A stretch of 64,000 bases of DNA from positions 124,001 to 188,000 of the forward strand of contig WGMB01000006.1 in NCBI GenBank assembly GCA_016125275.1, given 5' to 3'. Numbering within the stretch: position 1 is the first letter of the stretch; every line of letters begins with the position of its first letter. Below, piece by piece: positions 6,977 to 63,514 of this stretch. The notes under the pieces were generated by a model. The model was given only the letters and a program-made list of their open reading frames with translations. It ran no database searches and was not told where the DNA came from. The position numbers and the translations under genes are program-made. Origin of the DNA: Acidobacteriota bacterium (lineage in GTDB: Bacteria > Acidobacteriota > Terriglobia > Bryobacterales > UBA6623).

Positions 6977-8692
6977 ATGCGCTGGAGTCAACTCTTCATC
7001 CCGACGCTGCGCGACGCGCCGGCCGACGCCGAAGTCGTCAGTCACAAGCTGCTGTTGCGGGCGGGCTACGTGCGCCAGCTCGCAGCGGGCTTCTACTGCT
7101 ATCTGTATCTAGCCAAGCGCTCGATCAACAAGATCGAGGCGATCATCCGCGAGGAGATGAACGCGATCGGCGCCCAGGAGATCTTTCTGCCGGAGGTGCA
7201 TCCGGCCGAGATCTGGCAGGAATCGGGGCGCTGGGACGCCATCGGCGACGACATGTTTCGCTTCAAGGACCGCTTCGGGCGCGACCTGTGCCTCGGCATG
7301 ACCGAGGAAGAGGTCGTCACCTGGCTGGCCCGCGGCGAGATGCGCTCCTACAAGCAGTTGCCGCAGATCTGGTATCAGATCCAGGCGAAGTTTCGCGATG
7401 AGCCGCGCCCGAAGTCGGGCCTGATGCGCGTCCGGCGGTTCACGATGAAGGACTCCTACTCCTTCGACATCGACGCCGCCGGGTTGGACGTCAGCTACAA
7501 CAAGCACTACGACGCCTACTGCCGTATCTTCTCGCGCTGCGGCCTGGAGTATCTGGCGATCGAGGCGCATTCGGGCGCGATGGGCGGTAGCGAGTCCCAC
7601 GAGTTCGTCGTGCCGTCGGACGCCGGCGAAGACCGGGTAGTCGAGTGCGCCGCCTCCGGCTACGCCGCCAACCTCGAAAAGGCTGTCGCCCAGGCGCCCG
7701 CGCCGACCGAGCCGGACCCGGAGGGAGACGCTGCGCCGGCGGAGCTCGCCACGCCGAACCAGAAGACGATCGCCGAAGTGGCCGCGTTCGACGGGCTGCC
7801 GGAGACGCACCACATCAAGACGCTGGTGCTGGTGGCCGACGGTCAGCCGGTGATGGCCCTGCTGCGCGGGGATCGCCAGCTCAACGAGACCAAGCTCGCC
7901 AGCCTGCTCGGCGCCAACGAGATCCGTCCGGCGCATCCGGAAGAGTTGCGCCAGTGGCTCGGCGCCGACGCCGGCTCGCTCGGGCCGGTCGGCGCGCCGA
8001 AGTCGATGCGCATCGTGGCCGACACCGCGCTCGAGGGCCGCAAGAACCTCGTCGCCGGAGCGAACAAGACCGGGTTCCACCTGCGGAACGTGACTCCGGG
8101 CCGCGACTTTGCCGCCGAATTCGTGGACATTCGAGAGGTCGAGGAGGGCGACCTCGACATCGAGTCCGGCCAGCCGGTTCGGCTGCGCAAGTGCATCGAG
8201 GTCGGGCACATCTTCAAGCTGGGCTACAAGTACTCCCAGTCGATGGATTTGCGCGTCTCCGGCGATGAAGGCAAAGAGGTTACGCCCATCATGGGCTCCT
8301 ACGGCATCGGCGTCGAGCGCATCCTCACGGCGGCCATCGAGCAGAATCACGACGAGGCCGGCATGGCCATGCCGGCGGCGATCGCTCCGTTCGAAGTGGT
8401 CGTGACGCCCATCAATTGGAAGACCGACGAGCAGCGCGAGGCCGCCGAGACGCTCTACGCCAGTCTGCTGGAGGCCGGCGTGGACGCCCTGCTCGACGAC
8501 CGCGCCGAGCGGGCCGGCGTCAAGTTCAATGACGCCGATCTGGCCGGCATCCCCTTCCGCGTCGTGGTAGGCAAGAAGGTGACCGAAGGTCTGGTGGAAC
8601 TCGCCGTGCGTTCGACACGTCAATCGAGCGATGTTAAGATCGAGGAGGTTGTAGGACTTCTTCGAGAAAAGCTCGCCGCCGCCAAGGCCTGA
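6977..8692 (+). CDS. proS: prolyl-tRNA synthetase
   Basis: Class II enzyme that charges tRNA-Pro. The 571-residue size and the insertion between motifs 2 and 3 mark the bacterial type with an editing INS domain (about residues 220-390). Motif 1 lies around PAEIWQESGRWD, motif 2 is FRDEPRPKSGLMRVRRFTMKD and motif 3 is MGSYGIGVERILTAAIEQNHD. The C-terminal anticodon-binding domain ends in LLREKLAAAKA. The frame is open 16 codons upstream, but the ATG at 6977 gives the standard N-terminus MRWSQLFIPTLRD. It is transcribed divergently from the glycosyltransferase. Confidence 0.96.
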   Translation: MRWSQLFIPTLRDAPADAEVVSHKLLLRAGYVRQLAAGFYCYLYLAKRSINKIEAIIREEMNAIGAQEIFLPEVHPAEIWQESGRWDAIGDDMFRFKDRFGRDLCLGMTEEEVVTWLARGEMRSYKQLPQIWYQIQAKFRDEPRPKSGLMRVRRFTMKDSYSFDIDAAGLDVSYNKHYDAYCRIFSRCGLEYLAIEAHSGAMGGSESHEFVVPSDAGEDRVVECAASGYAANLEKAVAQAPAPTEPDPEGDAAPAELATPNQKTIAEVAAFDGLPETHHIKTLVLVADGQPVMALLRGDRQLNETKLASLLGANEIRPAHPEELRQWLGADAGSLGPVGAPKSMRIVADTALEGRKNLVAGANKTGFHLRNVTPGRDFAAEFVDIREVEEGDLDIESGQPVRLRKCIEVGHIFKLGYKYSQSMDLRVSGDEGKEVTPIMGSYGIGVERILTAAIEQNHDEAGMAMPAAIAPFEVVVTPINWKTDEQREAAETLYASLLEAGVDALLDDRAERAGVKFNDADLAGIPFRVVVGKKVTEGLVELAVRSTRQSSDVKIEEVVGLLREKLAAAKA

Positions 8693-17802: not shown

Positions 17803-18567
17803 CTACTCGCCGGAGCTTTCCGGGCGTCGGACGCGGCCGACGATGTCGCTCCAATGCGGGAATGCGGAGAGCCCCTCGGGCGCGTCGAAAGGCTCCTCGA
17901 CTTCCAGCAGACCGTTGCCCTCGAGAGGTTTGTCGAGTTTGATGTGGAAGCGGCCCAGCAGACGGCCGGTTCCGTTGTCCTCGCCGCGCTCCAGCACCAG
18001 CACCTCGTAGTCGCCCGCGGGGGCCGGCGCCATCTCATGGTTCGTGAGCGCGGCCCGGATGCGCACCTCGGCATTGGCGTCCCGCCAAGCCCGCAGCCCG
18101 GAAACTTCCAAGCCGCCCGCTTCGGGAATCGTGACGGCGGCCTCCGCCGAGTCGCCGCCCGCGAGCTCGTCACGCCACTGGCTGAACAGCTCCGGGCTGC
18201 TCATGTAGACGGCGACGCCGGCCGAAGCCAGCACCAGGAACAGGAACAGCAACAACTGCGATGGGCTCAGCGAGAGTGCGTGCTCCGGAGCAGGCGGCCG
18301 GACCGGCGGAGCGGGGATAACCGGCGCCCGCGGGCTCAGCGGCTCCATTCTCGGAGCCTCCACTCTCGGGGCGGCCACAGCCGGCGCCGCTTCGACTTGC
18401 GGGGTTAGGAGGGGCCGCGGAGCGATCTCCGGTTCCGGCTTCAGCTTGGGGCTGCCGCTGGCCGACCCGAAGGCCGTCTCTCCTGCATCCGCCGGCTCGC
18501 AATACGGACAGTGCGTGTGCGAGACGTCAACATCCTTCCCGCAGCGCTGGCAGACCCAGGTAAACAT
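17803..18567 (-). CDS. zinc-ribbon, single-pass membrane protein of unknown function
   Basis: A 254-residue protein built from an N-terminal zinc ribbon (CQRCGKDVDVSHTHCPYC, residues 6-23), a long Pro/Ala-rich linker, one transmembrane helix at about 105-124 (LLLFLFLVLASAGVAVYM) and a C-terminal globular domain of about 110 residues. That domain resembles a beta-sandwich (VRIRAALTNHEMAP, YEVLVLERGED). The layout suggests a cytosolic metal-binding head with an extracytoplasmic sensor or binding domain. I do not recognise the C-terminal family. The -10 TAGAAT at 18585-18580 lies 12 bases before the ATG. Confidence 0.75.
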   Translation of the reverse strand: MFTWVCQRCGKDVDVSHTHCPYCEPADAGETAFGSASGSPKLKPEPEIAPRPLLTPQVEAAPAVAAPRVEAPRMEPLSPRAPVIPAPPVRPPAPEHALSLSPSQLLLFLFLVLASAGVAVYMSSPELFSQWRDELAGGDSAEAAVTIPEAGGLEVSGLRAWRDANAEVRIRAALTNHEMAPAPAGDYEVLVLERGEDNGTGRLLGRFHIKLDKPLEGNGLLEVEEPFDAPEGLSAFPHWSDIVGRVRRPESSGE

Positions 18568-18579
18568 GCCTGAGCCCGA

Positions 18580-18585
18580 ATTCTA
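18580..18585 (-). promoter_or_regulatory. -10 element of the zinc-ribbon gene
   Basis: TAGAAT preceded by GC on the minus strand, ending 12 bases before the ATG at 18567. The predicted leader is about 6 nucleotides. Confidence 0.45.
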
Positions 18586-18595
18586 GCATCCTCGG

Positions 18596-18805
18596 TCAGG
18601 CTGCTCGCCGAGAGGCCGATGAAGCGCCCCAGCAGCGGAACAGCGGAAGCATGCCGCTCCAGCGACACGGCGACTCCTCGAGCTTCGCCGGCGCCTCGAC
18701 CACGGCTTCCGGCGCAGCTTCTTCCGCCGGGCGACGGTAGGAGGCCACGTGAAAGCTGGCGGTCCCGTAATCGATGAAATTCCACTCCACGTTGGGCTGA
18801 GTCAC
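18596..18805 (-). CDS. candidate small protein downstream of a palindromic operator
   Basis: An open frame of 69 codons from a GTG at 18805, preceded by AGAGGGGA about ten bases upstream. An in-frame ATG at 18844 would lie inside the palindrome. The N-terminal half (VEWNFIDYGTASFHVASYRR) looks like real protein. The C-terminal half is Glu/Pro/Ala-rich and less convincing. No known family is recognised. It fills most of the 340-base gap between two clear genes. The TATGCT on the minus strand at 18845-18840 could be its -10. It may instead be a remnant or untranslated DNA. Confidence 0.35.
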   Translation of the reverse strand: MTQPNVEWNFIDYGTASFHVASYRRPAEEAAPEAVVEAPAKLEESPCRWSGMLPLFRCWGASSASRRAA

Positions 18806-18840
18806 GATTCCAAATCCCCTCTCTCGCGTCGGCGCAAGGA

Positions 18841-18864
18841 GCATACCGATCGGTATGCATACCG
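18841..18864. promoter_or_regulatory. overlapping perfect palindromes, TetR-type operator candidate
   Basis: GCATACCGATCGGTATGC (18841-18858) is a perfect 18-base palindrome. CGGTATGCATACCG (18851-18864) is a second perfect palindrome sharing its right arm. Three copies of the CGGTATGC half-site are thus arranged head to head and tail to tail. Such ATACCG-CGGTAT sites are typical of TetR-family operators. The site overlaps a TATGCT -10-like hexamer for the small gene at 18596-18805. No TetR-family gene is visible in the window. Confidence 0.6.
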
Positions 18865-18908
18865 TTGAGTATGGACTTGGGCGCCGCCGCGGTCAAGCGT
18901 CGATTCGG

Positions 18909-20600
18909 TTAATTTCCGCCCAGCGAGCGCAGCGCCTGTTCCGCTTCGGGGTCTCCGTAGGGCCAGTGGGAGAGGTAGAGCTGCAAGGCCGCACGGCCTC
19001 GCTCGCGGTCCCCCGCCTGGAGGTACAGGAACCCCAAGTTCCGGGCGCAGGAGGGCAGGTCGGGCGAGTTTTCGATGTAGAGGCGGCAGGAGGCGTCCAG
19101 GTGTTCGATCACCCCGGAGAGCGGCTGCTCGTCCGATGCGATCAGCGCGGAGTTGGCCGGGTTGTTTCGTACGAAGACGACGGCCTGAGCGTCGTGGCGG
19201 ATGAGCTTCCAGTCCTCCAACCCCGGGCGGCCGAGATCCAGGATCAGCGGGTAGACCACGCCGGAGACGTACTCGAAGCCGTTCATGACGATGGAGTCGA
19301 CCGAGTACTTGTCGAGCAGGCTGCGGCGCAGCGCGGCGGTCTGGGCGGGGTTTTGGTCGCCGTAGAGCAACGCCTGGTAGTCCCTGTAGACGCCCTCATT
19401 CAGAGCTCGGCCGTCGATGAACGTCTTGCGTTCCGGACCGAGCGCCCAGATCAGATAGCCCCCGTACTCGTAGGTATTGAACATGTGGCCGGCGAGGTTC
19501 CGCTCCTTGATGAAGTCCGTCGCCGCCACGGGGAACTTCCATTCCGCGGCGCGAAGCTGGAAGAGCCTGCCTTGGACGCCGAAGCCGACCAGCAGCGTTG
19601 CCGCGAGGCCGACGAGCAGGCCCGGCCCGAGGCGAGGGTCGAGGCGGGAAGCCTTTCCCTCGACCAACGGGCGGCCATAGATCGCCAACAAGGCCGGAGC
19701 CAGAAATGCCACCAGCGGCAGGTTCCGGAACGCCAACAAGGCGGCCGAGCCGAAGGCCACGAAGAGCAGCCCGTGGGCGATGCGGACCTGTTTGATCCGA
19801 GCCACCAGCAACGCAGCCGCGGCATAGAGCAGGAGTTGGAAGATGTAGGGCGGCCCCCACAGCGGCGGGCGCGACCACTCGATCAGGGTTTGGGTCAGAG
19901 CGCTCTCGCGATACCCGGCGAGAATCGCCAGGATTCCGAAGCCGGAAGGGTTGAGCCCGGAGACGGCGACGGCCGCCGCGGCGGCGATCCACAAGGGCTT
20001 GCGCCGTTCCGAACCCAGCGCCTCCACGGCGTAGCAGCCCAGAACGACCCAGCCCATGAAGAAGCCGCCGTGGGAGTTCGCCCACAGCAACGACAGAGCG
20101 GGAAGCAGCCACAGCCAGCGGTCCGAGCCGCCGTCCCGCCAGCTCTCGAGGATCACGACGAAGACGGGAACCAGGACGAACGTCAGCAGCGCCGGCCGGT
20201 CGGCGGCAAACAGCAACAGCGTTGGGGCCGCCGCCAGAGCCGTCAGGCACGACCAGGCCATGCCCGCCCCCGAGCGCCAAGCCAAGAAACCGGCCAGCCC
20301 GCAGACTGACGCCAGCAGCAAACCCTTCCACAACGCCAGCAGCGGAAAGCCGCCTACCGCGTACACGCAATACCACAGCGCCTGGGAGAGCCACTCGTGC
20401 GTGAGGTTGAAGTAGCGCACCCGCTCCTCGCCGGGATAACTCGGCTCGCCGAGATCCGTGGTGTAGGCGAACGGGTCCGGGACAGGCAACCGCTGATTCT
20501 CGAGCACGTACTCGCCGGTGGCGAGGTGCCACCAGAAGTCCGTATCGGCGACCTCGGTGGAGAACGCTCCGAGCAGCAGCACGGCCGTCAGAGCGGCCAA
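18909..20600 (-). CDS. large integral membrane protein with soluble C-terminus
   Basis: A 563-residue protein with about ten hydrophobic helices in the first 350 residues. It opens with TDFWWHLATGEYVLENQ, followed by PVPDPFAYT, the signature of a family of bacterial membrane proteins of glycosyltransferase C-like appearance. A periplasmic alpha/beta region (YEYGGYLIWALGPERKTFID) and a short TPR-like C-terminus complete it. Enzymatic activity is unproven. The only ordinary start is a weak TTG at 20600. The frame stays open to about 20793 with coding-like residues, so the true start may be a non-standard codon upstream. Confidence 0.78.
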   Translation of the reverse strand: MAALTAVLLLGAFSTEVADTDFWWHLATGEYVLENQRLPVPDPFAYTTDLGEPSYPGEERVRYFNLTHEWLSQALWYCVYAVGGFPLLALWKGLLLASVCGLAGFLAWRSGAGMAWSCLTALAAAPTLLLFAADRPALLTFVLVPVFVVILESWRDGGSDRWLWLLPALSLLWANSHGGFFMGWVVLGCYAVEALGSERRKPLWIAAAAAVAVSGLNPSGFGILAILAGYRESALTQTLIEWSRPPLWGPPYIFQLLLYAAAALLVARIKQVRIAHGLLFVAFGSAALLAFRNLPLVAFLAPALLAIYGRPLVEGKASRLDPRLGPGLLVGLAATLLVGFGVQGRLFQLRAAEWKFPVAATDFIKERNLAGHMFNTYEYGGYLIWALGPERKTFIDGRALNEGVYRDYQALLYGDQNPAQTAALRRSLLDKYSVDSIVMNGFEYVSGVVYPLILDLGRPGLEDWKLIRHDAQAVVFVRNNPANSALIASDEQPLSGVIEHLDASCRLYIENSPDLPSCARNLGFLYLQAGDRERGRAALQLYLSHWPYGDPEAEQALRSLGGN

Positions 20601-56084: not shown

Positions 56085-56570
56085 ATGATGCCGAAGAAAT
56101 CCTATGTCCAGGCCGTGATCAACGGCGAGTCCCGCGAGTTTCTGTGCGAGCCGCGCCAGACCCTGCTGGAGGTCCTGCGCGAAGAGCTCGGCCTGACCGG
56201 CGCCAAGGAAGGCTGCGGCGACGGCAACTGTGGAGCCTGCGTGGTGATTCAGGACGGCCGCCTGGTGTGCTCTTGCTTGGAATTGGCCGTGGAGTCGGCC
56301 GGAACTGAGATCACGACGGTCGAAGGCGTCGCCGGACGCCAGGAGCTGCATCCCTTGCAGCAGTGCTTCTTGGAAGACGCCGCACTGCAGTGCGGCATCT
56401 GCACGCCGGGCTTCTTGGTGTCGGCCAAGGCTCTGCTCGACAAGAACCCCGACCCCAGCGAGCCTGAGATCCGGCTCTGGCTCGCCAACAACCTGTGTCG
56501 CTGCACCGGCTACGACAAGATCGTGCGCGCCGTCGAGCACGCCGCTGAGAGAATGCGGCAGGAGGCTTGA
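56085..56570 (+). CDS. molybdenum hydroxylase 2Fe-2S subunit (CoxS-like)
   Basis: A 161-residue small subunit. The plant-ferredoxin-like cluster is held by C44, C49, C52 and C64 (EGCGDGNCGACVVIQ, then VCSC). The second 2Fe-2S cluster uses CGICTPGF and CRCTGY. It relays electrons from the molybdenum site to FAD. The stop is 6 bases before the CoxL-like start. Confidence 0.95.
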   Translation: MMPKKSYVQAVINGESREFLCEPRQTLLEVLREELGLTGAKEGCGDGNCGACVVIQDGRLVCSCLELAVESAGTEITTVEGVAGRQELHPLQQCFLEDAALQCGICTPGFLVSAKALLDKNPDPSEPEIRLWLANNLCRCTGYDKIVRAVEHAAERMRQEA

Positions 56571-61589: not shown

Positions 61590-63514
61590 GACGAGGGGCC
61601 TGGCTGGCCTGCTGGCTGGCGTCCACCCTGGCCGCCGCCGAGCCGCAGCTCCAGGTTCCTTCCACCGCGACCGGCGTCGCCGCTGTGGCGGCCACTCTGG
61701 GCCTCTTCGCAACGGCCGAAGAGGCAGCCTTCCGTGTCGTGATCGGCGACAGCGACGCGGCCCAGACTCTGGGCTTCCGGCCGACGCCGCAGACCGTCCG
61801 CGTGGCCGCCCTGCGCGACGCCTTGGCCCCCGAGCTCGAGATCTTCTGGCAAGAGCCCCTCGAGGTTCCGGTCTTCACACTGCCGGAGGGCGCCGTCGTC
61901 TTCACCACCGAGAAGCGGACGGGCGCGCCTCTGGCGGCCGGAACGAAGACGCCGTCCGGAGCCGTTCTCTGGCTGGCCGTGGCCCCGGGCGCCCGGGGCT
62001 ACGAGAGGTATCCGCTCTGGCTGCACGCCTTGCTGGAGCTGGGCCTGGAGCCGCCGTTCCGCAACGCTCGGACCTGGGTCTTCTACGACCCCGCCTACCG
62101 GCTCCGCGTGGAACCCAACCTGCTGGCCCGGCGCTGGCGAGAGGCCGGCGTGGCGGGCGTACACGTCGCCGGCTGGCCCTTCTTCGACGGCGACGAGGGC
62201 TCCGCGGAGCGCTTGCGGGCCCTGCTGGCGGCCTGCCGCCGCCAAGGCGTGCTGGCCTACTGCTGGCTCGAGCTGCCTCACGTCAGCGAGGGCTTCTGGC
62301 AACACTTCCCGCAGTGCCGCGAGAAGACCGCCGCCGGGCTGGACGCCCAGCTCGACTGGCGCAAGCTGATCGCGTTGTCCGACCCGGCCTGCGCCCAGCA
62401 GGCTCGGCAAGGCGTAGAACGCCTGTTGACGGGCTTTGCCTGGGACGGCGTCAACCTGGCCGAGCTCTATTTCGAGTCCCTCTACGGCCCAGCCGATCCC
62501 ACCCGCCTGACGCCGTTCCATCCCTCCGCGCGGGAGGCCGCACAGGCCGCTCTGGGGTTCGACCCGCTCGCACTGTTCGACGCCGACGGCGATCGCTTCT
62601 GGAGCCGCAGCCCCGAGTCCTGGAAAGCCTTTGCCGACTGGCGCGCCGACCTCGCCTTGCGGCTGCAAGCGGAATGGCTGGGATTCCTCCGCCAGACCCT
62701 GCCGCGCGCCGACCTCGTCGTCACCCAGATCGACGACCGCTTCGAGCCGCGTATGCGCGAGCTGCTCGGAGCCGACGCCGGAGCCCTGCTGGCGCTGCCG
62801 GAAGAGGACTTCACTTTGCTGATCGAAGATCCCGCGCCGCTGTGGGCCCTGGGCCCGGAGCGCTACGAGCGGATCGCCGCAGCGTATGCGCCGCTCACCG
62901 GCGACCCCGGACGCCTCGCCATCGACCTCAACATCGTCGAGCGCTACCAGCAGACCTACCCCACCCGCAAGCAACTCGGCGGCGAGTTCCTGACATTGGT
63001 CGACCAAGCCGGCCGCGGCTTCGAGCGCGTGGCTTTGTATTTCGAGAGCTCCATCAGCGGTCCGGACCTGGCGCTGCTGCCGCGCATCGCGGCCGGCGCC
63101 CGCATCGTCGAGCGCGCCCCGAACGGAGCCCGCATCGTCGCCGAATCCCCCCGGCCCTTCGGCCTGAGCTGGGACGGGTCGGCGATCGTGGACGGCGGGC
63201 TCTGGCCGCTCAGTGACCGCCACACGGTGTGGCTCCCCAGGGGCCGACACGTGGTGGAAGCCCCGCAGGCGCCGCAAGCCCTCCCGCCGGCCCGAGTCCT
63301 GTGGCTGAACGCCGAGCCCTTGGCCGCTTCCGTCCACGGCCGGGAGGTTCGCTTTTCCTACTGTTCACAGCCCGCCGCCCCCGTGCTGCTCGACCGGCGG
63401 CCGGCCGAGACGCTCGTTGACGGCCGCCCCTACGACGCCGGCTGGGAGCAGACCCGCAGCCACTGGTCCGGCCGTCTGCCGCCCGGCGAGCACACGGTTC
63501 GCCTCGTCTTCTGA
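61586..63514 (+). CDS. secreted TIM-barrel glycoside-hydrolase-like protein
   Basis: A 642-residue exported protein (signal peptide 1-18). The central region looks like a TIM-barrel hydrolase: RWREAGVAGVHVAGWPFFDG, RQGVLAYCWLELPHVSEGFW, TGFAWDGVNLAELYFESLYG and VVTQIDDRFEP. The WDG-N-AE-YFES and Asp/Glu-rich elements recall the hydrolase domain of PgaB and related exopolysaccharide-cleaving enzymes, but I cannot assign a CAZy family. Its ATG overlaps the stop of the outer-membrane TPR gene (ATGA), so the two probably act on the same exported glycan. Confidence 0.75.
   Translation: MRRGAWLACWLASTLAAAEPQLQVPSTATGVAAVAATLGLFATAEEAAFRVVIGDSDAAQTLGFRPTPQTVRVAALRDALAPELEIFWQEPLEVPVFTLPEGAVVFTTEKRTGAPLAAGTKTPSGAVLWLAVAPGARGYERYPLWLHALLELGLEPPFRNARTWVFYDPAYRLRVEPNLLARRWREAGVAGVHVAGWPFFDGDEGSAERLRALLAACRRQGVLAYCWLELPHVSEGFWQHFPQCREKTAAGLDAQLDWRKLIALSDPACAQQARQGVERLLTGFAWDGVNLAELYFESLYGPADPTRLTPFHPSAREAAQAALGFDPLALFDADGDRFWSRSPESWKAFADWRADLALRLQAEWLGFLRQTLPRADLVVTQIDDRFEPRMRELLGADAGALLALPEEDFTLLIEDPAPLWALGPERYERIAAAYAPLTGDPGRLAIDLNIVERYQQTYPTRKQLGGEFLTLVDQAGRGFERVALYFESSISGPDLALLPRIAAGARIVERAPNGARIVAESPRPFGLSWDGSAIVDGGLWPLSDRHTVWLPRGRHVVEAPQAPQALPPARVLWLNAEPLAASVHGREVRFSYCSQPAAPVLLDRRPAETLVDGRPYDAGWEQTRSHWSGRLPPGEHTVRLVF

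Follow-up and report, generated by a model that had tools for sequence, protein, structure and literature searches.

Close known counterparts of the site considered here come from two lines of work. In the account given in PMC3017554, the leaderless acuR-acuI-dddL operon of Rhodobacter sphaeroides is repressed by AcuR itself, which acts at an inverted repeat lying over the promoter, and the mapped transcript begins at the AUG; the operator is given there as TAATAGAC-n6-GTCTATTA, which is of the AGAC type. A structural precedent for two TetR-family dimers occupying one long operator is provided by CprB and QacR, as treated in PMC4150764. No published description of the operator sequence discussed below was recognised in the literature, as judged from search results alone.

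The window, that is, the whole stretch of 64,000 nucleotides that was analysed (Acidobacteriota bacterium, contig WGMB01000006.1), contains on its plus strand an 18-bp perfect palindrome, GCATACCGATCGGTATGC, at 18841-18858 and a 14-bp perfect palindrome, CGGTATGCATACCG, at 18851-18864; the pair with a common arm, as recorded in the initial annotation, is therefore present. We consider it likely that a sigma-70-type promoter, directed leftward into a small orphan gene, here carries a double TetR-family operator, whose most likely repressor is a TetR protein encoded on another contig. The palindromes make most sense as a pair of adjoining 16-bp operators whose centres are 16 bp apart. The first putative operator, O1 (CATACCGATCGGTATG, 18842-18857), is a perfect dyad that extends to 18 bp with the G/C pair flanking it at 18841 and 18858. 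The second, O2 (CATACCGTTGAGTATG, 18858-18873), is a dyad made by a fourth, weaker half-site; it matches at 12 of 14 specified positions, and it is one mismatch away from CATACYGnnCRGTATG. Read on the minus strand, 18873-18841 is CATACTCAACGGTATG followed by CATACCGATCGGTATGC. The 14-mer at 18851-18864 would be a by-product of O1 and O2 meeting at their inner half-sites. There are four half-sites forming two abutting operators and not, as first described, three half-sites, and the feature, although real, extends as far as 18873 and so exceeds by three bases the interval 18596-18870 originally assigned to it.

An inverted repeat with symmetric half-sites, here an 18-bp perfect and a 16-bp dyad, is what is looked for in a TetR-family operator. 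The 18-bp palindrome alone is not striking, because perfect palindromes of 18 bp or more number four in the window, where 60 first-order Markov simulations gave 0.8 on average and never as many as four; the other three, of 18-20 bp, are at 8357-8376, 56379-56396 and 61982-61999. None of the 60 simulations produced an arm-sharing pair with lengths of 18 bp or more and 14 bp or more. Two dimers on adjacent half-sites are an established mode of binding in the TetR family, of which the operators treated in PMC4150764 are examples, and the arrangement in the window would allow it; its two dyads differ from the operators of CprB and QacR in being nearly perfect and in having 16 bp between them from centre to centre. 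A scan of a genome collection (from which the genome studied here was perhaps left out) with CATACCGnnCGGTATGCATACCG gave a sole match, in Streptomyces sp. NRRL S-340 (L014 605-640), where a pair of CATAC/GTATG palindromes, again in a 16-bp register, precedes an FMN oxidoreductase gene. This tandem CATACCG site belongs to a distant organism and has a target other than the small gene of the window.

A sigma-70 scan of 18560-18960 reported a single promoter-like site, TTGACC-17-CATACT, on the minus strand at 18896-18868 (mean of 0.1 in 50 shuffles). Its predicted -35 hexamer, TTGACC, lies at 18891-18896 and, after a spacer of 17, its predicted -10 hexamer, CATACT, lies at 18868-18873 within O2, of which it is the first hexamer on the minus strand, giving a predicted overlap with promoter elements of the kind that is characteristic of TetR-family operators. 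A different -10-like hexamer, TATGCT (18845-18840, minus), had been proposed to lie beneath the half-sites; it is discarded since the scan reports only TTGACC-17-CATACT. An ATG on the minus strand at 18859-18861, 7 nt past the -10, has the same position as the tetR start codon of the orthologues described below and, on the AcuR precedent, may be the +1 of transcription. The promoter, TTGACC-17-CATACTCAACGGTATG, shares its layout with those of the tetR orthologues, but the ATG here opens a frame without coding signal. A leaderless gene starting at ATG 18861, by analogy with tetR, was considered and rejected: its first 45 codons score -21.9, compared with a real-gene average of +25.7.

The scores come from a codon model trained on ten genes of the window, with 45-codon windows compared with real-gene and wrong-frame windows. 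The open frame 18596-18844 (minus) is present, as annotated, and its ATG at 18844 had been taken to put the 5' end of the gene under the palindromes. This is not borne out: ATG 18844 lies inside the operator, downstream of the -10 CATACT, and the coding signal fits a start at GTG 18805, behind a Shine-Dalgarno-like GAGAGAGGGGA, giving a gene of 69 amino acids (MTQPNVEWNFIDYG...) at 18596-18805 on the minus strand. In this the small gene is unlike leaderless acuR, as its Shine-Dalgarno-like start is downstream of the predicted +1. The first 45 codons from GTG 18805 score 21.5, a value that 25 of 78 real-gene windows equal or fall below and that none of 390 wrong-frame windows reaches; for the last 45 codons the score is -8.0, a level attained by 81 of the 390 wrong-frame windows. 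The front of the gene is coding-like and the last 24 codons are not, which may reflect either a frameshift or an unusual tail. It should be noted that in 18567-18700, where the frame loses its signal, the +1 frame (GVAVSLERHASAVPLLGRFIGLSASSLTED) is partly coding-like, as if frameshifted.

The description of the small frame as lacking a family holds, there being no match in Pfam or NCBIfam. Among the 18 family genomes a homologue is found in the genome studied here and in no other, and among 396 genomes of the phylum the only convincing match is again its own, the 11 others being weak and partial (E 0.002-0.009), several with internal stops. No convincing homologue was thus found in relatives. 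The upstream neighbour, a protein of 563 amino acids, is likewise confined to this genome among the 18 of the family.

Three leftward genes on the same strand follow the promoter: the small frame, a gene for a zinc-ribbon-like protein of 254 amino acids (17803-18567, minus) and a cupin gene. The zinc-ribbon-like gene, with homologues in 54 of the 257 genomes of the order (the present one counted), is a possible read-through target, and an alternative to the reading given above is that the operator serves chiefly this gene, with the small frame as a leader. The shared strand, the distance of about 29 nt from the stop of the small gene to the ATG and the absence of any terminator-like site from a scan of 18560-18960 are consistent with this. 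We nevertheless regard it as unlikely, in that the zinc-ribbon-like gene has a promoter-like TGCTAGAAT of its own just before its ATG (by eye), and the upstream DNA compared for its relatives in the family does not contain the operator segment. The small gene is found at one of the 13 zinc-ribbon-like loci with upstream DNA compared, that one being the locus in the window.

The initial annotation held that the site belongs to a regulator encoded elsewhere, and a candidate is indeed found. The genome is 97.6% complete and contains five TetR_N genes, one of which, on another contig (G000:C5:23315-23962, minus; hereafter C5), encodes a 215-residue TetR protein and has the palindrome CATACTGAGCAGTATG spanning its start codon. 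The protein passes the curated cut-offs for TetR_N (49.3 bits; cut-off 24) and for TetR_C_13 and TetR_C_13_2 (62.2 bits each; cut-offs 27 and 27), and is the sole one among the five with a C-terminus of the LmrA/YxaF- and AcuR-like kind (TetR_C_13), the remaining four having TetR_C_7, TetR_C_33, TetR_C_30 and TetR_C_33. Near the starts of these genes the best match to CATACCGnnCGGTATG is 12/14 for the C5 gene and 8-9/14 for the other four; 12/14 is reached by none of 532 background windows from the same genome. It is the symmetric variant CATACTGAGCAGTATG, and not the exact 18-mer, that provides the motif at a tetR gene of the same genome. The proposal of a TetR-type operator over the promoter of a family-less gene gains support from this matching palindrome at one of five TetR genes, and the sequence correspondence makes the C5 protein the most likely repressor of the window site.

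The C5 protein is related to AcuR (NCBIfam AcuR model, E 4.7e-26), but at 91.3 bits it falls below the cut-off of 247 for the equivalog. The likeness to the R. sphaeroides system extends to the inverted repeat over the promoter, as at the window, and to the start codon of C5 tetR, which stands directly at its putative promoter in a geometry that would fit a leaderless transcript such as that mapped for acuR in PMC3017554. Autoregulation of C5 tetR would be the natural reading by this analogy. The differences are that the AcuR operator reported in PMC3017554 is AGAC-type and the window and C5 sites are CATAC-type, and that no acuI or dddL partner was identified in the organism. In the PDB, the sequences matching the C5 protein include that of CprB (E 4e-11).

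Matches to C5 TetR (E <= 1e-15) occur in 29 of 257 order genomes, its own included, and in none of the other 17 genomes of the family. The six closest orthologues (L031-L036; 46-52% identical) have the palindromes CATACTGGTTGGTATG, CATACTAGTTGGTATG (twice), CAAACTAGTTGGTATG, CATACTTGTCGGTATG and CACACTAGTTGGTATG, located 16-19 nt past TTGACA or TTGACT, and in seven of seven cases, the C5 gene included, the last ATG of the palindrome is the in-frame tetR start (frames judged by eye). In L037, which follows at 37% identity, the site is of a mixed kind, GATACCGACTGGTCTG. Among 30 TetR matches, a recognition helix could be extracted from 15, to which the following counts refer. The helix TKGALYHHF accompanies CATAC-like/GTATG sites in seven of seven cases (the left arm being CAAAC in L034 and CACAC in L036), and KGG[LI]YNHF accompanies AGAC-type sites in five of five; of the other three, two have the helices TKGALFHHF and TKGAFFHHF and the third lacks a clear site.

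These comparisons bear on whether the window contains a TetR-type operator of another regulator, one whose gene lies in unassembled DNA of this genome or which belongs to a different subfamily. ACCGnnCGGT cores are also found, with AGAC flanks, in the sites of other TetR_C_13-like proteins, and completeness of 97.6% leaves room for a further gene. Such an origin seems improbable to us, given only five TetR_N genes, four of them of other C-terminal families and with different upstream sequences, and given that an ATAC flank accompanies the TKGALYHHF helix, which among the five is present only in the C5 protein.

Sites beside other genes are also seen in the group. In G156, TTGACA and then CATACCGGTTGGTATG precede a glyoxalase-family gene on a different contig from tetR, and therefore remote targets probably occur among these regulators. 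A AAACCGACTGGTCGGTTTT palindrome is found between tetR and a DoxX-like gene in L037, and CATACCAACCAGTCTG precedes a SnoaL-like gene in L035. Second palindrome-like sites are present just past tetR, near 2126 in L031 and L033 and near 2144 in L035 (tetR orientation); in L031 and L033 the gene next to this site is convergent, and the target of the site may have been lost.

The genome-wide search proposed for the 18-base palindrome had a mixed outcome: the exact 18-mer occurs once in the 7.55-Mb genome, even with up to three mismatches allowed, and a symmetric variant stands at the C5 tetR start codon, as described above. Allowing up to two mismatches, CATACYGnnCRGTATG occurs at 34 places in the 7.55 Mb, compared with 21 for its reversed control, a count that is partly post hoc, the motif having been made degenerate after both sites were seen. 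Two of these places are exact (O1 and C5:23960-23975), one, O2, has a single mismatch, and there are no others at this level; of the 31 with two mismatches, 24 are in frames that score as coding and seven are unclear. In the order, CATACCGnnCGGTATG is found in five of 257 genomes and its reversed control in two, and among the four foreign matches there are two in coding-looking frames (by eye); taken alone, this recurrence is near chance level, and the open frames around the four foreign matches showed no link to tetR. A family relative without a close TetR orthologue (G009) has CATACCGGACGGTATG at L013 1501-1516, near a TIR-like open frame (by eye).

The objection raised in advance, that the site would have neither another copy nor conservation in relatives, applies to the unique 18-mer and to the window site and small gene, which are unconserved, but not to the degenerate site, which recurs at tetR and its orthologues. 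That the palindromes arose by chance or are a relic to which no regulator binds, the small frame decaying or being no gene, is given little credence: the frequency of 18-bp palindromes in the window, the lack of conservation, the non-coding last 24 codons and the partly coding-like +1 frame downstream speak for it, and the abutting double site absent from all 60 simulations, the promoter geometry common to the window site and the tetR gene, and a front of 45 codons that beats 390 of 390 wrong-frame windows speak against it.

We therefore return to the double operator with the C5 protein as its likely repressor, which would work as an ordinary TetR-type switch. In the absence of ligand, two dimers centred 16 bp apart would block polymerase, the one on O2 covering the -10 hexamer and the start point and the one on O1 covering the first transcribed bases. 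The same protein would also bind the single site at its own start codon, and a small-molecule ligand would release the dimers. As a regulator acting on a promoter, the arrangement in the window is of an established sort; it is the orphan target gene that is the unusual part of the system.

On this basis an isolated palindrome becomes a testable regulator-target pair, made up of one TetR protein, its single autoregulatory site and a remote double site. The association of TKGALYHHF with CATAC/GTATG and of KGG[LI]YNHF with AGAC could aid the assignment of operators in poorly studied phyla. We suggest, tentatively, that C5 TetR governs a regulon of two promoters, that of its own gene and that of a lineage-specific 69-residue protein. 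If this is true, a small-molecule sensor would have the orphan protein as its chief output, the relatives of this sensor acting on glyoxalase-, DoxX- or SnoaL-like genes.
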